Below, in pieces: positions 31,197 to 44,149 of a stretch of DNA of 64,000 bases. Each line of letters opens with the position of its first letter. Position 1 is the stretch's first letter. The position numbers were made by a program, and so were the translations under genes. The stretch comes from an uncultured Bacteroidia bacterium (GTDB lineage Bacteria > Bacteroidota > Bacteroidia > NS11-12g > UBA9320): NCBI GenBank assembly GCA_943787465.1, contig CALSMN010000003.1:129093-193092 (forward strand). The letters are read 5' to 3'. The notes under the pieces were generated by a model that was not told the DNA's origin, did no database searches, and saw only the letters and a program-made list of their open reading frames with translations.

Positions 31197-31829
31197 ATGT
31201 CTGCAAGTATAGAAACAAAAATCGCTAAAATATTATTAGAAACAAGTGCCATAAAATTGTCTCCCGATGCACCATTCCAATGGAGCAGCGGATGGAACAG
31301 CCCCATATATTGTGATAACAGAACGGTATTGTCCTATGCACATCATCGAAAGGCCATAAAAGAAATGTTATCTGCAGAAATAAAACGTCAGTTTCCGACA
31401 GCAGACACCATTATCGGTGTAGCTACAGCGGGTATTGCAATGGGGGCTTTGATTGCGGATGAATTGAATTTGAGTTATGCGTATTGTCGTCCTGAACCCA
31501 AATCGCACGGACTCAAGCGACAGCTAGAAGGCAAGGTAGCGCCCAATGCTACCCTGGTTGTTTTGGAAGACCTAATCAGTACGGGAGGCAGTAGCCTGAA
31601 GGTTGTCCATTATTTGCGCAACGAAGGCTATCATGTCGCCGGTATGGCAGCTATTTTCACATATGGATTTCCGATAGCAGAAGCCAATTTCAAAGCGGCC
31701 GATTGTAAGCTGATTACCTTGGGCAATTACGGCAGTATGATCCATGAAGCGGTTGCTTCGGGGTATGTCCAAGCAGCAGATCTCGACAAATTGGCCCAGT
31801 GGCGAGAAAGCCCCGATACGTGGGGGTAG
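31197..31829 (+). CDS. pyrE: Orotate phosphoribosyltransferase
   Basis: PyrE makes orotidine 5'-phosphate from orotate and PRPP in pyrimidine synthesis. The 210-residue protein has FQWSSGWNSPIYCDNR near the N terminus, the RPEPKSHGLKRQLEG loop and the PRPP-binding motif VLEDLISTGGSS (about residue 121). The codon use and GC content of this gene look slightly higher than those of the island that follows. Confidence 0.95.
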   Translation: MSASIETKIAKILLETSAIKLSPDAPFQWSSGWNSPIYCDNRTVLSYAHHRKAIKEMLSAEIKRQFPTADTIIGVATAGIAMGALIADELNLSYAYCRPEPKSHGLKRQLEGKVAPNATLVVLEDLISTGGSSLKVVHYLRNEGYHVAGMAAIFTYGFPIAEANFKAADCKLITLGNYGSMIHEAVASGYVQAADLDKLAQWRESPDTWG

Positions 31830-31833
31830 GTGA

Positions 31834-31932
31834 TTATTTCATGAATGATACTTCCCACTCTGTTGGCTTTTGAAGTATAAAACCCTGACCATTGTCTATT
31901 GATTTTTTATATTCATTAATGAGATCAAACAT
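31834..31932 (-). pseudogene. Short open fragment, possible gene tail
   Basis: A 32-residue frame on the minus strand (start ATG 31932, stop TAA 31834-31836) encodes FDLINEYKKSIDNGQGFI and a tail with TEWEVSFMK, which looks like the C-terminal end of a real protein. A second frame just upstream could start MMKKVNNGIKSTILCLIS, like a secreted or membrane protein start, and runs into a stop after 25 codons. Together they may be a frameshifted remnant. No family was recognised. Confidence 0.3.
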
Positions 31933-31972
31933 AGGATAGTTGATTTTATACCGTTATTTACTTTTTTCATCA

Positions 31973-32662
31973 TTATTTAAGCTGATGTTGTTTTTTATAT
32001 TTTCTAGTTTGTTCATCTTCATATGTAGTAGAGATAAAGTCATGGAGTGTAAATACTTGATAGTTATCTTTTCCTCTAAGACTGAAAACAAAGACTTCAT
32101 TATTTTCGGAGAAACAGAAGTAAGTAGGCATGGATACATTATTGATAGCAATACTTTGTTTGATGTTTTTTTCCCTCACAAATTCCAGAAACTCGCGATC
32201 ATCATCAAACACAGTATTCTTGTAATCTTCTATACACATTATAATTACTCCGTCGCTAGACCCTAAAATTATGGTGTCTTGAGTATGTATTGTAGTGGTT
32301 ATGGTCGATAAGTACTTTTTTAATCTGTATTTAATTTTTCGAACTTCTAATTTTTTTAATGAATCTTCATTTTGAAGGTTTTATAAATTGAAATTTTTAG
32401 GTACAGGAACATAAAAAATATGCGTCTGTTGTGGTGTTACATTCTTCTCTGCACAACTACTTTTTTGATACGATTTCATTACCCTTCTTTCATACCGTTT
32501 CAATAAGCAGGAGTCTACTTTTACTCCAATGGATGTATTTTGACCATGTACATGGTTGGTCAACATTGCAAAAAATATAACATAAGGTGCAATGGACTTC
32601 GTACTGCCTTTATCATAGTATCTATGCATTAAGTATAAAAATTTTAATATAAATTTCTTCAT
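31973..32662 (-). pseudogene. Membrane protein gene interrupted by an in-frame stop
   Basis: A single reading frame of 230 codons is broken once, by TAA at 32381-32383. The first 93 codons encode a protein starting MKKFILKFLYLMHRYYDKG with a membrane helix (APYVIFFAMLTNHVH) and an extracytoplasmic part. The frame stays open for about 130 codons after the stop, and that part reads like coding sequence (SDGVIIMCIEDYKNTVFDDD, FCFSENNEVFVFSLRGKDN), but it has no ATG for its first 45 codons. The simplest reading is one gene with a nonsense mutation. Two separate genes or readthrough are less likely. No function is recognised. Confidence 0.5.
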
Positions 32663-32846
32663 AATTTTTTATCCATTGATTCGATTCATTTTTACAATTA
32701 ATTTTACCATTGATGGTGATATCTCGATTGACTGCAAGTATAAAACCATTATTAGTAGGAGTTCCAATACCTATATTGCCAAATTTATCCATTCTTAAAC
32801 CGCTTACAGTTGTGTCTCCACCTGCTGCCCACGGAGCAAGGACCAA
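32622..32846 (-). pseudogene. C-terminal fragment of a GNIGIGT-type surface/tail-fibre-like protein
   Basis: About 75-80 codons encode GLRMDKFGNIGIGTPTNNGF followed by ILAVNRDITINGKINCKN. This is the motif found near the C terminus of Bacteroidota surface proteins that resemble phage tail fibres (GNVGIGTxxP...LxVNG). The usual long N-terminal part and the C-terminal chaperone-like region are missing, and the frame opens straight after a stop codon. It overlaps the start of the interrupted membrane protein gene. I read it as a truncated remnant. Confidence 0.5.
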
Positions 32847-32849
32847 TGC

Positions 32850-33172
32850 ATAGGCTTGATTTTACAAGGTGTTGGGTGAAGAGGTGTTTCATACAGGTTT
32901 TGTTTCAATAGTAAAAAGGTTACAAAAAGTGGTTTTGGGCCACGGATTAAACGGTTTTCAGCAGTCCTTTTAAGGGGGCTGATGAAAAAAAAGTCCAATC
33001 GAAAACACAGATGAATTGTAGTATTCAGCGCTTTCGATTGTCAATGCTTAAAGTTAAATGGAGAAATTAAAAAAAACAAATAGGAAAGGAATGGCTGCAG
33101 CAGGATAGCACGTGCGAGGCAAGTATGACTGCCTTGTAATCAGCAACTTAGCGTGGCAAAAAAAATTAAAAA
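32850..33172. other. Non-coding stretch downstream of the MacA-like gene
   Basis: I see no convincing gene here. Positions 33090-33160 are clearly richer in GC than their surroundings (about half G+C by eye) and hold short palindromes (CTGCAG, GCACGTGC) and a GGCA-N8-TGCC pair. It could be a structured RNA, an interspersed repeat or a remnant. One minus-strand open frame at 32804-32998 has no protein-like character. Confidence 0.4.
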
Positions 33173-34459
33173 TTATTTTTTCTCAAGTTTATCGGTGGTC
33201 GTTTTTTCCATAACAGCCACTTTACTGCCCGCTTTGAGGGTTTTGCTGATGGCATCGTAGGGGCCAATGATGACCTTCTCCAATCCATCGATGCCAGACA
33301 AAATCTCGATGTACCGGCTATCTTGAATTCCGGTGGTGATAATATGCTTTACAGCTTTGTCATCTTCTATTGAAAAAATAACTTCATCCAGTTGATCCTC
33401 GTTATTCAGACTATCGGAAGACATGCGGGTGCCTACAGCCTCAATGGGAAGACTATACACCTTCTTTTTAACCGCGGTTTGTATTTCGACATTGGCACTC
33501 ATACCCGGTAAAAAAGGGGCATTGGTTTGGGTAAGTAAATCACTATAACTGGATTTTAGAATACGAACTTTTACCTCAAAATTGGTGACTTGATCCGAAT
33601 TCATAACGGTATTTGATTGGTTCGCACTTTTGGCAATGTCTGTTACGATGGCCTTGAATGTACGATTGGAGTATGCGTCTACCTCTACGAGTGCAGTGTC
33701 CCCTTTTTTGACGTTGAGAATGTCATTTTCATTGACATCCACAATCACTTCCATGTGATTGAAGTTCGCAATAGTCATAATTTCAGTACCGGCCATTTGA
33801 GCGGTACCCACTACGCGTTCTCCCTTTTCGTTATTGAGGGCACTAATCACGCCGTCAGAAGGAGCAAAGATCCGTGTTCGTTCTAATGCTTTGTTGGCTT
33901 CATTGAGGCTAGCTTGGGCGTTATCGATGCTATATTTAGCACCAGCTAGGCGTTGTTTGGCAGCCGTTACTTCACTTTTGGCTACTTCGTAGAGGGTTTG
34001 GGCAGCATCCCACTCGGCCTCACTGAGTACCTTTTCATTAAAGAGATCTTGGTTGCGTTGGTAGATGGATTCTTGTTCTTTCAAACGGGTTACCGCTTGT
34101 GTCACTTGGGCCTCTGTGGTTTTGAAATTACTTTGAGAACCACTCAAGCTGGCTTGAGCTCGATCCTTCGCCGTGATGTATAAATCAGGATTTATTTTGA
34201 GTAATAATTGACCTTCAAATACGGTATCACCTTCTGTTACGAAGAGTTCTGTGATTTCACCAGAAACGTCTGCACTGATTTTCACCTCGGTTTCGGGTCT
34301 TATTTTTCCATTGGCACTTACCGAAGAAATGATGGTTCGTTGTTCAATTTTTCCAACGGTAACTTCAATAACCCCTCGTTTTCTGTTTTTTCCTATGACT
34401 ACTAAAATGATGGTAATTAGAACGATACTAAGGCCTATAATTAATTTTTTTTTGGTCAT
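33173..34459 (-). CDS. MacA/HlyD-like periplasmic adaptor of an efflux pump
   Basis: This 428-residue membrane fusion protein connects an inner-membrane transporter to an outer-membrane TolC channel. It has one N-terminal membrane helix (about residues 4-23), a lipoyl half-motif (SADVSGEITELFVTEGDTVF), a long alpha-helical hairpin (about 95-200), the second lipoyl half (IFAPSDGVISALNNEKGERV) and beta-barrel domains. The pattern is MacA-like. The TolC-like gene is directly upstream with a one-base stop/start overlap. The partner ABC or RND transporter is not in the window. Confidence 0.88.
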   Translation of the reverse strand: MTKKKLIIGLSIVLITIILVVIGKNRKRGVIEVTVGKIEQRTIISSVSANGKIRPETEVKISADVSGEITELFVTEGDTVFEGQLLLKINPDLYITAKDRAQASLSGSQSNFKTTEAQVTQAVTRLKEQESIYQRNQDLFNEKVLSEAEWDAAQTLYEVAKSEVTAAKQRLAGAKYSIDNAQASLNEANKALERTRIFAPSDGVISALNNEKGERVVGTAQMAGTEIMTIANFNHMEVIVDVNENDILNVKKGDTALVEVDAYSNRTFKAIVTDIAKSANQSNTVMNSDQVTNFEVKVRILKSSYSDLLTQTNAPFLPGMSANVEIQTAVKKKVYSLPIEAVGTRMSSDSLNNEDQLDEVIFSIEDDKAVKHIITTGIQDSRYIEILSGIDGLEKVIIGPYDAISKTLKAGSKVAVMEKTTTDKLEKK

Positions 34460-35871
34460 TATAATGATAATTCTTTTCCTTTATAAAAGTCGATAATTAG
34501 ATTTCTAAATAGCCATTCGTACTTGGCATTGATCCATTGTATTTGAGCTTGATTCCACTGATTTTTAGCGGTCAATAACTCTACACTATTGAGGATTCCA
34601 GCATCAAAACGTTTCTGGCTATACGCGTAATTTAATTGTTGTGCTTCAACACTTTGTTTGGTAGCTAAATACCGGCTTTCTGCGGTTTTAAGATTGGTAT
34701 ATGCCGTAGTGACATCGTTTCGAATCTGATTTTTAGTATTCTGAAGATTGAGTTCACTTATTTTGGTGTTCAGGCGTGCATTTTTAAGGGCGGTTTGATT
34801 GCGGTAGCCATTAAAAATAGGGATTGAAATGGATAATCCAACCTGTTGTCCTAAGTTGTCTGTCAGTTGATCTCCAAAAGATTTGGGAGTAAGTTCTGTT
34901 GCTACATTGGGGACCAAAACCTGCTCCAATGAATTTTCGGTAAATCCGATAGGGATAAAAGTGGTGTCACCAAAACGGATATTCTGACCACTTTGAGAAT
35001 ATACCGTATTGATATTACCATACCCAGATATGGTGGGTTGTAAACGAGCAGAGGCCATCTTTTCGGCATATTTATTTTGAGCAATGATAGCTTCTGCTTG
35101 GGCAATGTCGGGCAAGTTTTGTAATGCCATGGTATATATATCGGCAACCGATTCTGTACGCATGGATGGATCATACGTCATGGGTTGAATATGGATTTCA
35201 AACGATTGATCTATGGGGTATTGCATCAGATTCATTAAGGTATTATATCCCCGTTCAATCGTATTTTGTGCATTGATAATATTAACTTTATCGTTGGCCG
35301 ATTGTGCCTTTAGGTTAAGGACCAATTGAGCATTCGTTGATCCATTTTCTAAAAATATTTCAGCTTGTTTTAACTGACTTTGCGTGATTTCGTATTGGGT
35401 ATTTGCCCATTTTAAATTTTCTTCTCCTTGGATGATCTGAAGAAATGTTTGCGAAACCGATAAAGCAATTTGATTCCGAATGACAGCAAGGCTAGATTGG
35501 TTGGCCAAAAGAGCAGATTTGTTTTGATTAATGGTGTGATTCACTTGGCTACCTCCGTAAAGTAAAACACCTGCACCAATCGAAAACGAATTACTCTGAA
35601 TGGTCGTATTATTGAAAGAGTTGGTGAAAGGGTCAATGGTTCTACCAATATTGTAGTTGTGATTCCCATTGCCATTGATGGCCGGCAGTCGGTTGATTTT
35701 GCTTTGGAGTAAATTGTTTTCTGCGATTTCACCTTGAAGTCTATTTTGAGCGATAGAGGTGTTGTGCTCTAAAGCATATTGAATACATTTTTTTAAAGTC
35801 CAAGGGGATGCTTCTTGGGCTACTGTTGTGCAATAGGCCAAGAGAAGGAAAACAGTAATTAGTTTATGCAT
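34459..35871 (-). CDS. TolC-family outer-membrane efflux channel
   Basis: This 470-residue protein forms the outer-membrane exit duct of a tripartite efflux pump. A signal peptide (residues 1-18, ending near TVAQ) is followed by two repeated helical regions typical of TolC/OEP proteins (AENNLLQSKINRLPAINGNG and a second half near 270-440 with ARLQPTISGYGN and LNLQNTKNQIRNDV). It overlaps the start of the MacA-like gene by one base, so they act together. Confidence 0.92.
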   Translation of the reverse strand: MHKLITVFLLLAYCTTVAQEASPWTLKKCIQYALEHNTSIAQNRLQGEIAENNLLQSKINRLPAINGNGNHNYNIGRTIDPFTNSFNNTTIQSNSFSIGAGVLLYGGSQVNHTINQNKSALLANQSSLAVIRNQIALSVSQTFLQIIQGEENLKWANTQYEITQSQLKQAEIFLENGSTNAQLVLNLKAQSANDKVNIINAQNTIERGYNTLMNLMQYPIDQSFEIHIQPMTYDPSMRTESVADIYTMALQNLPDIAQAEAIIAQNKYAEKMASARLQPTISGYGNINTVYSQSGQNIRFGDTTFIPIGFTENSLEQVLVPNVATELTPKSFGDQLTDNLGQQVGLSISIPIFNGYRNQTALKNARLNTKISELNLQNTKNQIRNDVTTAYTNLKTAESRYLATKQSVEAQQLNYAYSQKRFDAGILNSVELLTAKNQWNQAQIQWINAKYEWLFRNLIIDFYKGKELSL

Positions 35872-40801: not shown

Positions 40802-43800
40802 TTAATGATGTATAACTATTTTCTCAGAAGACGTACCTGCAGAAGTGTGCACTTGTACAAGGTAAGTGCCACTAGCTAACGTGTCATTTACCCTTACTTC
40901 GTTGGTTATTCCTTGAAATGTAAATACTGTTTTTCCAGCCATATTGAGGATCTCAATACTAACGGCCTGTTGTTGATCCAATTGAATGACAAAAGGACCT
41001 TGTGCTGGGTTGGGAGACAATTGAAAGGAAGTTTTTAGTGGTGTTGCAATACGATTAACTTCTGGTTCTTTGAGCCGAATTGTGTAATCTTCGATTTCAC
41101 CAGGAGTATTGCTGCATGGCGACATTGGATTGGTGAAGTACTGACTTCTTACCCGCAATCGTAAATTTTTATTGATCGTTGCATCCGTTGGAACAGTGAA
41201 AGTGCTCGTCGCCTTTTTTGTTTCATTAGATAGGGTGGAAAAAATAAGTTGTTCTGTTGTTTCAAAATCGCCATTACGATTATAATCAATCCAAGCAGTA
41301 ACAGAATCTCTACCGTTAAAAACGTAATTCATACCCACTTCTAGGGTATAGTTCTCGCCTAATTCAAGCTCCGTAGATTGATCTGTAAAATCGCCATAAA
41401 ACTCTTGATTGGAAGTGTTATTAATATCCTCTAAATCTACATAATTGATATAATCTTGTGTAGCTCCTTCACCGGAGGGAACGCAATATTTGAATTCTCT
41501 AACCAGGTAATCAAAGGTGTATGTTTCAGATAAATTGCCATTTTTTGAATGAGCCAATACCTTGAAATAAACATGATCATTCCAAGTGTCTGCACCAATG
41601 GGTCTCTTAGATTTCCAAGTGTTCGTGCCCGTTTTTTCCATGGCTATGGTGCTATCCAATGTAACGCTATTAGCACTCCAAAATACATTTACATCATCTA
41701 AATCACCATCATAATCAATGGTTGCGGTGACATACTGATCAATACCATCTTTGGGGGAATTGATGGTGGGTGTGCTTGTCAGAGTAGTATGTGTGATGGA
41801 AGGATAATTATTTCGACCTACCAAAGTATATTCCCATAAACCTCGTCCCCAAGTGGCAGCTCTTAATGTATTGCTTCCGTAATGAATTTCTAAATCCTTA
41901 ACCGTAACGTTGGGAAAATTTTCATTGTAAAGGGTCCATATAGTAGCCGATTTGCTTTTGTAATAGATGCCAATTTCTCCTCCTACATACAGGTAAGACG
42001 AATCACTATGATCCATAACTACGGTTCGAAGTGGCATGTCTCCCAGATTGTATGTAATGTTAGTCCAGGTAGCCCCCTGATCGAAGGAGATAAATATTTT
42101 TTGATTGTCTTTTTGATACCGGTTGTATGTAACCATAATGGTGTTTTTATTTTTTGGATCAAAGGCAATATCTGTAATCGAAAAATTGGGCAAACCCGAA
42201 TGGATACTCTTCCACGATTGTCCTCCATCTGTGGTTAGACGAAGGATATTATTTCGGGCAACAGCGATAACATTAGAATCCGATTCGGCTATAGCAGCTT
42301 CCGTAATGGTAGCCCCTATTCCTGGATCAGATTTGAAAGTCCATTGTGTTCCAAAATCATTTCCACGATACATGGTATCACTAAAATGGTAGACTTGCAT
42401 ACTGTTTTGAGGATTTTGTAATAAAGGGGCTTCCCAAGCAGCATTTCCACTGCCTCCATTTGGGTTGTTACATCCGTTCCGGGTTAGTCCTCCATTTTGG
42501 GTATAATTTCTTGACCCAAATTGCCAACTGCCTATCATCCAATCCTTATTGAGGGGATGAGCTAAAGCTTCCATACCGTCGCCACCGTTCCATTCTATCC
42601 AGCCATCTTTATTTAAAATACTGGTTCCATTGTCTTGTGATCCAGCCATATTGATGTCGTAGTTGCCTTGACTCAGCCCAACGGCATAAAATTCACGAAT
42701 GGCGGTTCCGTCATTGAGGCGAGTCCAAGTGTTTCCATTGTCAGTACTTTTTGCAAAATACCCGTCTGTACCTACATAAAATACACCATTTACACATTCG
42801 GCTATCCGCAAATCAGCATGAATGTATGCATTATTTTGATTAGCCCATGCCGTTTTTTGACTGAATGATTGACCACCGTCAGCAGAGGCAAAAAGGTCCA
42901 CATACCCATAGATCATATAATCGGGATTAATATCTGATACGGCAAATGCGAAGCCACTGCTATTGGGATTACTTAATGCCGTAAAGTTTGCTCCTTCGTC
43001 GGTAGATTTAAATACTCCATTGGAGGATGCTGCATAGACATGATCAGGTTCGGCAGGCGAAACAGAAAGATAAATTCTTGAGTAATTGTTGTTAGGGTAT
43101 GCTCCAGCATTACTAAAAGACGCTCCTGAATCAGTAGATTTTTTTAATAAATCCCTATCATTAAAATAGCTTCTATAGGCATAAATAATATTATTTTTTG
43201 TTGGATGGAAATTCAATATCTGTAGCGGCTCCATTAAAGGCTAAAGTCCAAGTTTTTAAGTTGTCATTGGATACAAATAGACCTTTTGATGTACCCAAAA
43301 AGACTTGATTATTTACATTTGGATGATAGGCGATTTTGTATATTCTGTCTGTATTGCCTAACCCTCCCCAACCTAAAATATCAGGATTAAAATTGGATTT
43401 TATCCAAGTATCACCACCATCCGTACTTCTGTATATTCCATGTGTAAATTCAGCACCTCCGTGTTGAACATCGATAAGAATCTCATTTTTATTGAAAGGA
43501 TTTACATCAAATGTACGCACACCACATGCAACCAGAAAATCGGTCGTATTCTTCCAGTTTTTACCACCATCACTGGTTTTCCAAAAACCACCGCTTCGAC
43601 TTCCCAAATACAAATGATTAGCGTCAGTTGGATCTATCCAAATATCTTCTACTCTGCCAATGCCTGGGGAGTAATGACTAGTCACCGTATTAGCATCCCA
43701 TGGACCAAGCTCTACCCAGCCATTATCAAAAGAAGTTTTATTTTTCAAATGGGATTGCTTGGCTAGGATGGATGCATATTCCTTTTGAGGTAAATAGAAA

Positions 43801-44063
43801 TCAACAGTATGGCGTTCTCCTGTTGGAAAAAATTTACTTTCATTTTCGTTTTTCCATCGTTCAAAATTTTTCCACCCCGAACCCTTACCACGTCCATGTA
43901 TATCAAAATAAGTATTGGCAGCATCAACAACCTCATAAAAGTGGTAGGAGTTGTCTGCCATCATTTTTTTATATTCTCTCACTTGTGCGGAGGTCAAAAA
44001 TTGTGCAAAAATGAAAAAAGGGATAAACAGTAGCTTGAATGTTGGCATAAATGTGTTATTCAT
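40802..44063 (-). pseudogene. Secreted BNR/sortilin-repeat T9SS cargo protein with one-base frameshift
   Basis: Two overlapping minus-strand frames (44063 to about 43194, then 43211 to 40802) read as one protein of about 1085 residues. The N part has a signal peptide and BNR/VPS10-like beta-propeller repeats (SRSGGFWKTSDGGKNWKN, YRSTDGGDTW). The C part continues the repeats (STDSGASF, STDEGANF, SADGGQSF, STDNGNTW), then a GEVED domain (YCVPSGEG to DYTI) and a T9SS type A domain (FQLSPNPAQG to the end). One extra base lies between 43194 and 43211, in TTTCC or in a run of six A (minus strand). It may be a real disabling mutation, slippage or a sequencing error. ATG at 44063 is preferred; ATG 44048 is an alternative. 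Confidence 0.8.
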
Positions 44064-44071
44064 AAACAGTG

Positions 44072-44079
44072 CAAATATA
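44072..44079 (-). promoter_or_regulatory. -7 box eight bases before the BNR-repeat T9SS cargo
   Basis: On the minus strand this reads TATATTTG, an exact TAnnTTTG match, eight bases before ATG 44063. This supports that start codon over the one at 44048. Confidence 0.45.
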
Positions 44080-44149
44080 TGGTCTTGAAAAATATAGACA
44101 GAATTAAGCGGTCTGAAATTGACCATATTTACCTTGTATTGACGATAAA

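Follow-up and report, generated by a model that had tools for sequence, protein, structure and literature searches.

Probable decay of accessory genes at a convergent pyrE–HlyD junction in an uncultured Bacteroidia bacterium

Bacterial pseudogenes arise by nonsense mutation and by deletion, often from foreign or accessory genes (PMC522871). The locus we describe here resembles such cases: it has a premature stop, truncated fragments, a narrow distribution and a GC content below that of the neighbouring genes. Unlike them, its interrupted frame comes without a known intact parent. Some purported pseudogenes turn out to be real genes, and an internal stop is not always a sign of loss (PMC11017572). 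Our frame has the internal stop in common with these, but nothing found here points to its expression or conservation.

The explanation we prefer, at a probability of roughly three in four, is ordinary decay: a graveyard of accessory genes at a convergent junction, among them an orphan gene stopped by a nonsense codon. The kind of locus is well known and the gene decay is of an ordinary sort. The interest is that one place shows accessory surface genes being acquired, disrupted and whittled down within a compact Bacteroidia genome (~2 Mb), with the flanking housekeeping genes untouched.

The junction and its flanks

The window, by which we mean the whole stretch of 64,000 nucleotides that was analysed, belongs to a genome of 1.97 Mb in 10 contigs with a completeness of 99.5%. 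Its genus relatives are mostly uncultured Bacteroidia/Bacteroidetes assemblies, several of them derived from seawater going by their isolate names. Measured between open reading frames of at least 120 codons, the longest intergenic gap in the window is 1,343 bp (31830-33172); the next longest is 347 bp and the median 9 bp. To its left lies an intact gene for a pyrE-type phosphoribosyltransferase (31197-31829, plus strand; PF00156, E 9e-9), which has a match in 15 of the 19 genus genomes (our own counted), the best relative showing 85% identity. To its right is an intact gene for an HlyD-type efflux adaptor (33173-34459, minus strand; PF16576, E 4.5e-20), matched at E ≤ 0.001 in 17 of the 19 genomes, again counting our own (the G013 match is weak, 1.2e-4). 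A gene for a TolC-type outer membrane efflux protein follows (34459-35871, minus strand; PF02321, E 9.7e-58). These domain matches identify the flanks between which the first-pass annotation had placed its gene fragments, pyrE and an efflux operon. Both pyrE and the HlyD/TolC genes are transcribed toward the gap, making it a convergent junction. Because both end here, insertions should be harmless to either, and the junction would be a spot where accessory genes can insert, decay and be deleted without harm to pyrE or the efflux operon.

The part of the gap nearest the HlyD gene, 32862-33172, holds no coding remnant recognisable by a six-frame hmmsearch with the family profile introduced below; a 78-codon frame within it has a codon score of z 1.3 against shuffles. 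Just downstream of HlyD, at 32996-33040, there is an imperfect inverted repeat with 16-nt arms, 81% complementary and 13 nt apart, which might be part of a terminator. We also considered direct repeats of 12-29 nt as scars of insertion and rejected them, for the inserted stretch does not lie between them.

A relic of a secreted surface family

The remainder of the gap carries three pieces of coding character on the minus strand, two of which the first-pass annotation had rightly listed as a GNIGIGT-type fragment and a short tail-like one. The tail is a frame of 39 codons (31834-31953, minus strand), a probable coding remnant of unknown parent that draws no Pfam or NCBIfam match. The GNIGIGT fragment (32622-32861, minus strand) is more telling, being the remnant of a secreted surface family of ~400 residues. 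It matches our family profile A2, made from seven full or nearly full members and ~410 positions long, with an E of 1.1e-7 over positions 285-316, and a six-frame unfiltered hmmsearch of the interval found no family part beyond these; only 32 of the ~410 positions are recognisable in the window. The fragment is therefore a relic and not a member gene of the family. Full-length members (alignments A1 and A2) carry G-x-GxG-x-x-P in their N-terminal part and WW.DFVF in their C-terminal part; the signal peptide and the latter part are absent from the interval. What the fragment shares with the family is an ALVLAPW...GLRMDKFGN segment, 72% identical over 25 residues to the protein at locus L076, and unlike a true member it has those 32 profile positions and nothing else of the profile. 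It runs on into a GIGT...NGFILAV segment that is closer to a 198-residue protein at L090.

Beyond the genus, the first half of the fragment is matched by proteins from other genera of its order; at E ≤ 0.1 such matches occur in 23 of 108 genomes, some of them fortuitous. The strongest, from G084, G058 and G021, show 60-67% identity over 26-30 residues. Proteins of 2,000+ residues that also matched the fragment were dropped, the three we opened (L086, L087 and L092) reading as unrelated protein, and a scan of viral contigs with the fragment gave no match. Neither Pfam nor NCBIfam has a name for the family (tried with L074 and L077 in Pfam, with L074 in NCBIfam).

Within the 19 genus genomes the A2 profile finds matches in five: G009, G018, G003, the window genome and G005, the last marginal at E 0.0097. 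Two open copies are present in G009, along with one broken across two frames (267 and 161 residues). Broken copies besides that of the window lie on contig C1 of G009 (1435450-1436668; L096, L136, L138) and on contig C103 of G003 (1080-1806; L026), and the family seems to be one that is readily frameshifted and truncated. Between pyrE and HlyD, G003 has two stretches of the family, positions 8-98 and positions 100-241, that lie in different frames, and a further frame comes after them. It is a frameshifted, truncated copy of the same family, in the same place and the same orientation.

These sequence comparisons support the idea of a decaying island as far as the surface family is concerned. 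A member of the family would formerly have sat in the interval, and what deletion has left of it is some 32 recognisable residues. The surface-gene decay proposed in the first-pass annotation is thus well supported for the GNIGIGT fragment, with the family found, few of its positions left and the G003 copy broken at the same place. The suggestion that the decay was recent fares less well here, where the gene is nearly gone; it is plausible for the one-stop frame next door, in which a single lesion was found.

The interrupted frame and its stop

That frame (31973-32662, minus strand) reads as 93 codons, a TAA at 32381-32383 and a further 135 codons ending in another TAA, so that the single-stop frame of about 230 codons previously reported comes to 229; the label of membrane gene given to it there finds no support. 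The downstream half does lack an early start, as had been noted: its first ATG, GTG or TTG is codon 48 of 135, at 32239, which makes a start-less stretch of 47 codons directly after the TAA and leaves 88 codons from the ATG. The GC content of the frame, 0.300, is low beside the mean of 0.364 (sd 0.027) for 36 genes.

To judge such a frame we simulated 3,000 order-1 and 3,000 order-2 Markov sequences with the composition of the 1,343-bp interval. Allowing one stop at most, the longest frame that the real interval contains is 231 codons; a one-stop frame of at least 230 codons appeared in 1 of the 3,000 order-1 sequences and in none of the order-2. The 135-codon frame is weaker evidence by itself (reached in 1.0% and 1.8% of the Markov sequences), and an open run of at least 135 codons following a stop has a probability of 0.00005-0.0002 in these models. 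By codon score, the proposed frame outranks the other five in each part of the interrupted frame (the 93 codons, the start-less 47 and the remaining 88), and the same holds of the frames proposed for the GNIGIGT piece and for the tail of 39 codons; as a control, with 143 stretches of 93 codons taken from window genes, the true frame came first in 141. Set against shuffles the z-scores are modest, at 1.1 for the 93 codons, 2.6 for the 135, 4.2 for the GNIGIGT frame and 1.7 for the tail, where the 12 window genes tested gave 2.7-5.9. (A 108-codon antisense frame on the plus strand was rejected as coding, with a z of 0.6.) Since the interrupted frame is rare in simulations and scores best on both sides of the TAA, the most likely interpretation is a single gene that a stop has interrupted. 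A premature in-frame stop within a coding frame beyond chance, as found at 31973-32662, is one mark of a pseudogene.

Homologues were sought widely, in sets of genomes that overlap. Against 58 relatives at E ≤ 1 the frame found itself only, apart from four weak matches; 108 genomes of the order yielded nothing apart from four weak matches, and 395 genomes of the class and 395 of the phylum gave one weak match each. There was no match in genome contigs, viral contigs, phages or plasmids, and nothing below E 0.01 in Pfam, PHROGs, NCBIfam or the PDB. The check proposed in the first-pass annotation, an intact homologue spanning the TAA, turned up none in genomes, viral contigs, phages and plasmids, nor did either the 93-residue or the downstream piece alone have a homologue in the same collections. 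We found no second genome of the same species. The matches at E 0.005-0.25 (G019, G039, G024, G002, G068, G063, G070, G433 and G587) we put down to chance: they fell on a coaD-type gene, on a wrong-strand ArsR-type gene and on a RecX-like protein (names given by eye), the remainder on other long frames or frames filled with stops. A DNA search of 40 genomes returned, besides the window itself, short AT-rich matches only (best E 1.1e-4, 63 query bases).

From its frame continuity and codon use, decay of the orphan frame is probable, as the first-pass annotation had suggested. An AT-rich gene of secreted type, ~229 codons long and adjoining the surface gene, would have been cut short after its 93rd codon by a nonsense codon. 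The frame itself is observed; that it was a single gene before the stop arose is what we infer. The gene may have been an accessory one not adapted to its host, which the modest z-scores and the low GC content would fit. Expression of the locus could give no more than a truncated polypeptide of 93 residues, and the locus probably does nothing. Against decay it can be said that the wholeness of the gene rests on statistics, with no intact homologue found, that its codon z-scores lie below those of intact genes, lowest for the 93-codon part, and that an assembly error could equally give a single lesion in 229 codons.

This last point leads to the alternative that survives best, albeit an unlikely one in our estimation: the TAA would be an artefact of sequencing or assembly, with an intact orphan gene of ~229 codons standing beside one true pseudogene fragment. 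Some 11 kb away a conserved Sortilin-Vps10/GEVED/T9SS-sorted gene (40802-44126, minus strand) suffers a frame change near 43,200 that leaves overlapping frames of 311 and 810 codons. The best match in 11 of the 18 genus relatives searched is one open frame of 1,045-1,132 residues; the other seven have shorter, broken-up or only distant matches. The frame change goes back either to faulty assembly or to a fresh mutation. This assembly therefore has at least one lesion that relatives lack, and the TAA could likewise be an error or a fresh mutation. However, the Sortilin-Vps10 lesion is a frame change and not a stop-making substitution, it may itself be real, and the surface-gene fragment adjoining our frame is truly decayed.

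We consider it quite improbable that the frame represents two genes, the first an intact one for a secreted protein of 93 residues that stops at the TAA, the second one of 88 residues that starts at the ATG at 32239. Both pieces do have an ATG start, and by eye the N-terminus of the first resembles a signal peptide ending ...HVHG|Q. But the start-less 47 codons between them are open in the same frame, for which chance gives 3-5%, and score best of six as coding, and neither piece has a homologue in the collections searched. Annotators should be cautious here and not call the 93-codon and 88-codon pieces genes. A chance opening in AT-rich sequence strikes us as very improbable. Homologues are missing, GC is low and codon z-scores are modest, and single-sequence structure models are of low confidence (mean pLDDT 35 for the whole with the stop read as K, 51 for the downstream half); yet only one of the 6,000 simulated sequences reaches such a frame, and the proposed frame wins the codon score in every piece. 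Hardly credible at all is the stop-codon readthrough that the first-pass annotation had also entertained, a programmed event that would make the 229-codon frame whole as a longer, lineage-restricted secreted protein without known relative: 135 codons are open past the TAA, but the collections searched hold no conserved homologue with the same stop, the window has no Rfam match, and by eye we recognised no context for it.

The same junction in relatives

Decay at this junction can be set beside the pyrE–HlyD interval of 11 relatives, which we read along with the window; the lengths given for relatives count the stop codons and, in some cases, a few codons at the gene ends. The interval is short in G007 (7 bp), G002 (17 bp) and G017 (67 bp), of middle length in G011 (483 bp), G006 (592 bp) and G016 (604 bp), and long in G001 (1,346 bp), G003 (1,415 bp), G018 (2,125 bp), G004 (2,172 bp) and G012 (2,258 bp, with a run of N). 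In G009 the pyrE and HlyD genes are 47 kb apart. In a tree of PyrE and HlyD from 12 genomes, G000, the window genome, falls beside the clade formed by G007, G003, G017 and G008 (support 99). As the junctions of G007 and G017 are empty within the clade of G003, either the surface family was present early and then lost at least once, or it arrived twice, and the insertions in G000 and G003 may be independent events and not one old one.

Other relatives carry other cargo. A protein of ~150 residues, with no Pfam match in the two tested, occupies the interval in G011, G016 and G006. In G018, G004 and G012 we find a PAP2-like gene (PF01569, tested in G018) and a long frame that by eye resembles a membrane transporter, which in G018 has no Pfam match. 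The transporter-like frame beside the PAP2 gene has 408 residues in G018 (L029) versus 133 in G001 (L028), as if the latter had been shortened by an internal deletion, another decay event at the junction.
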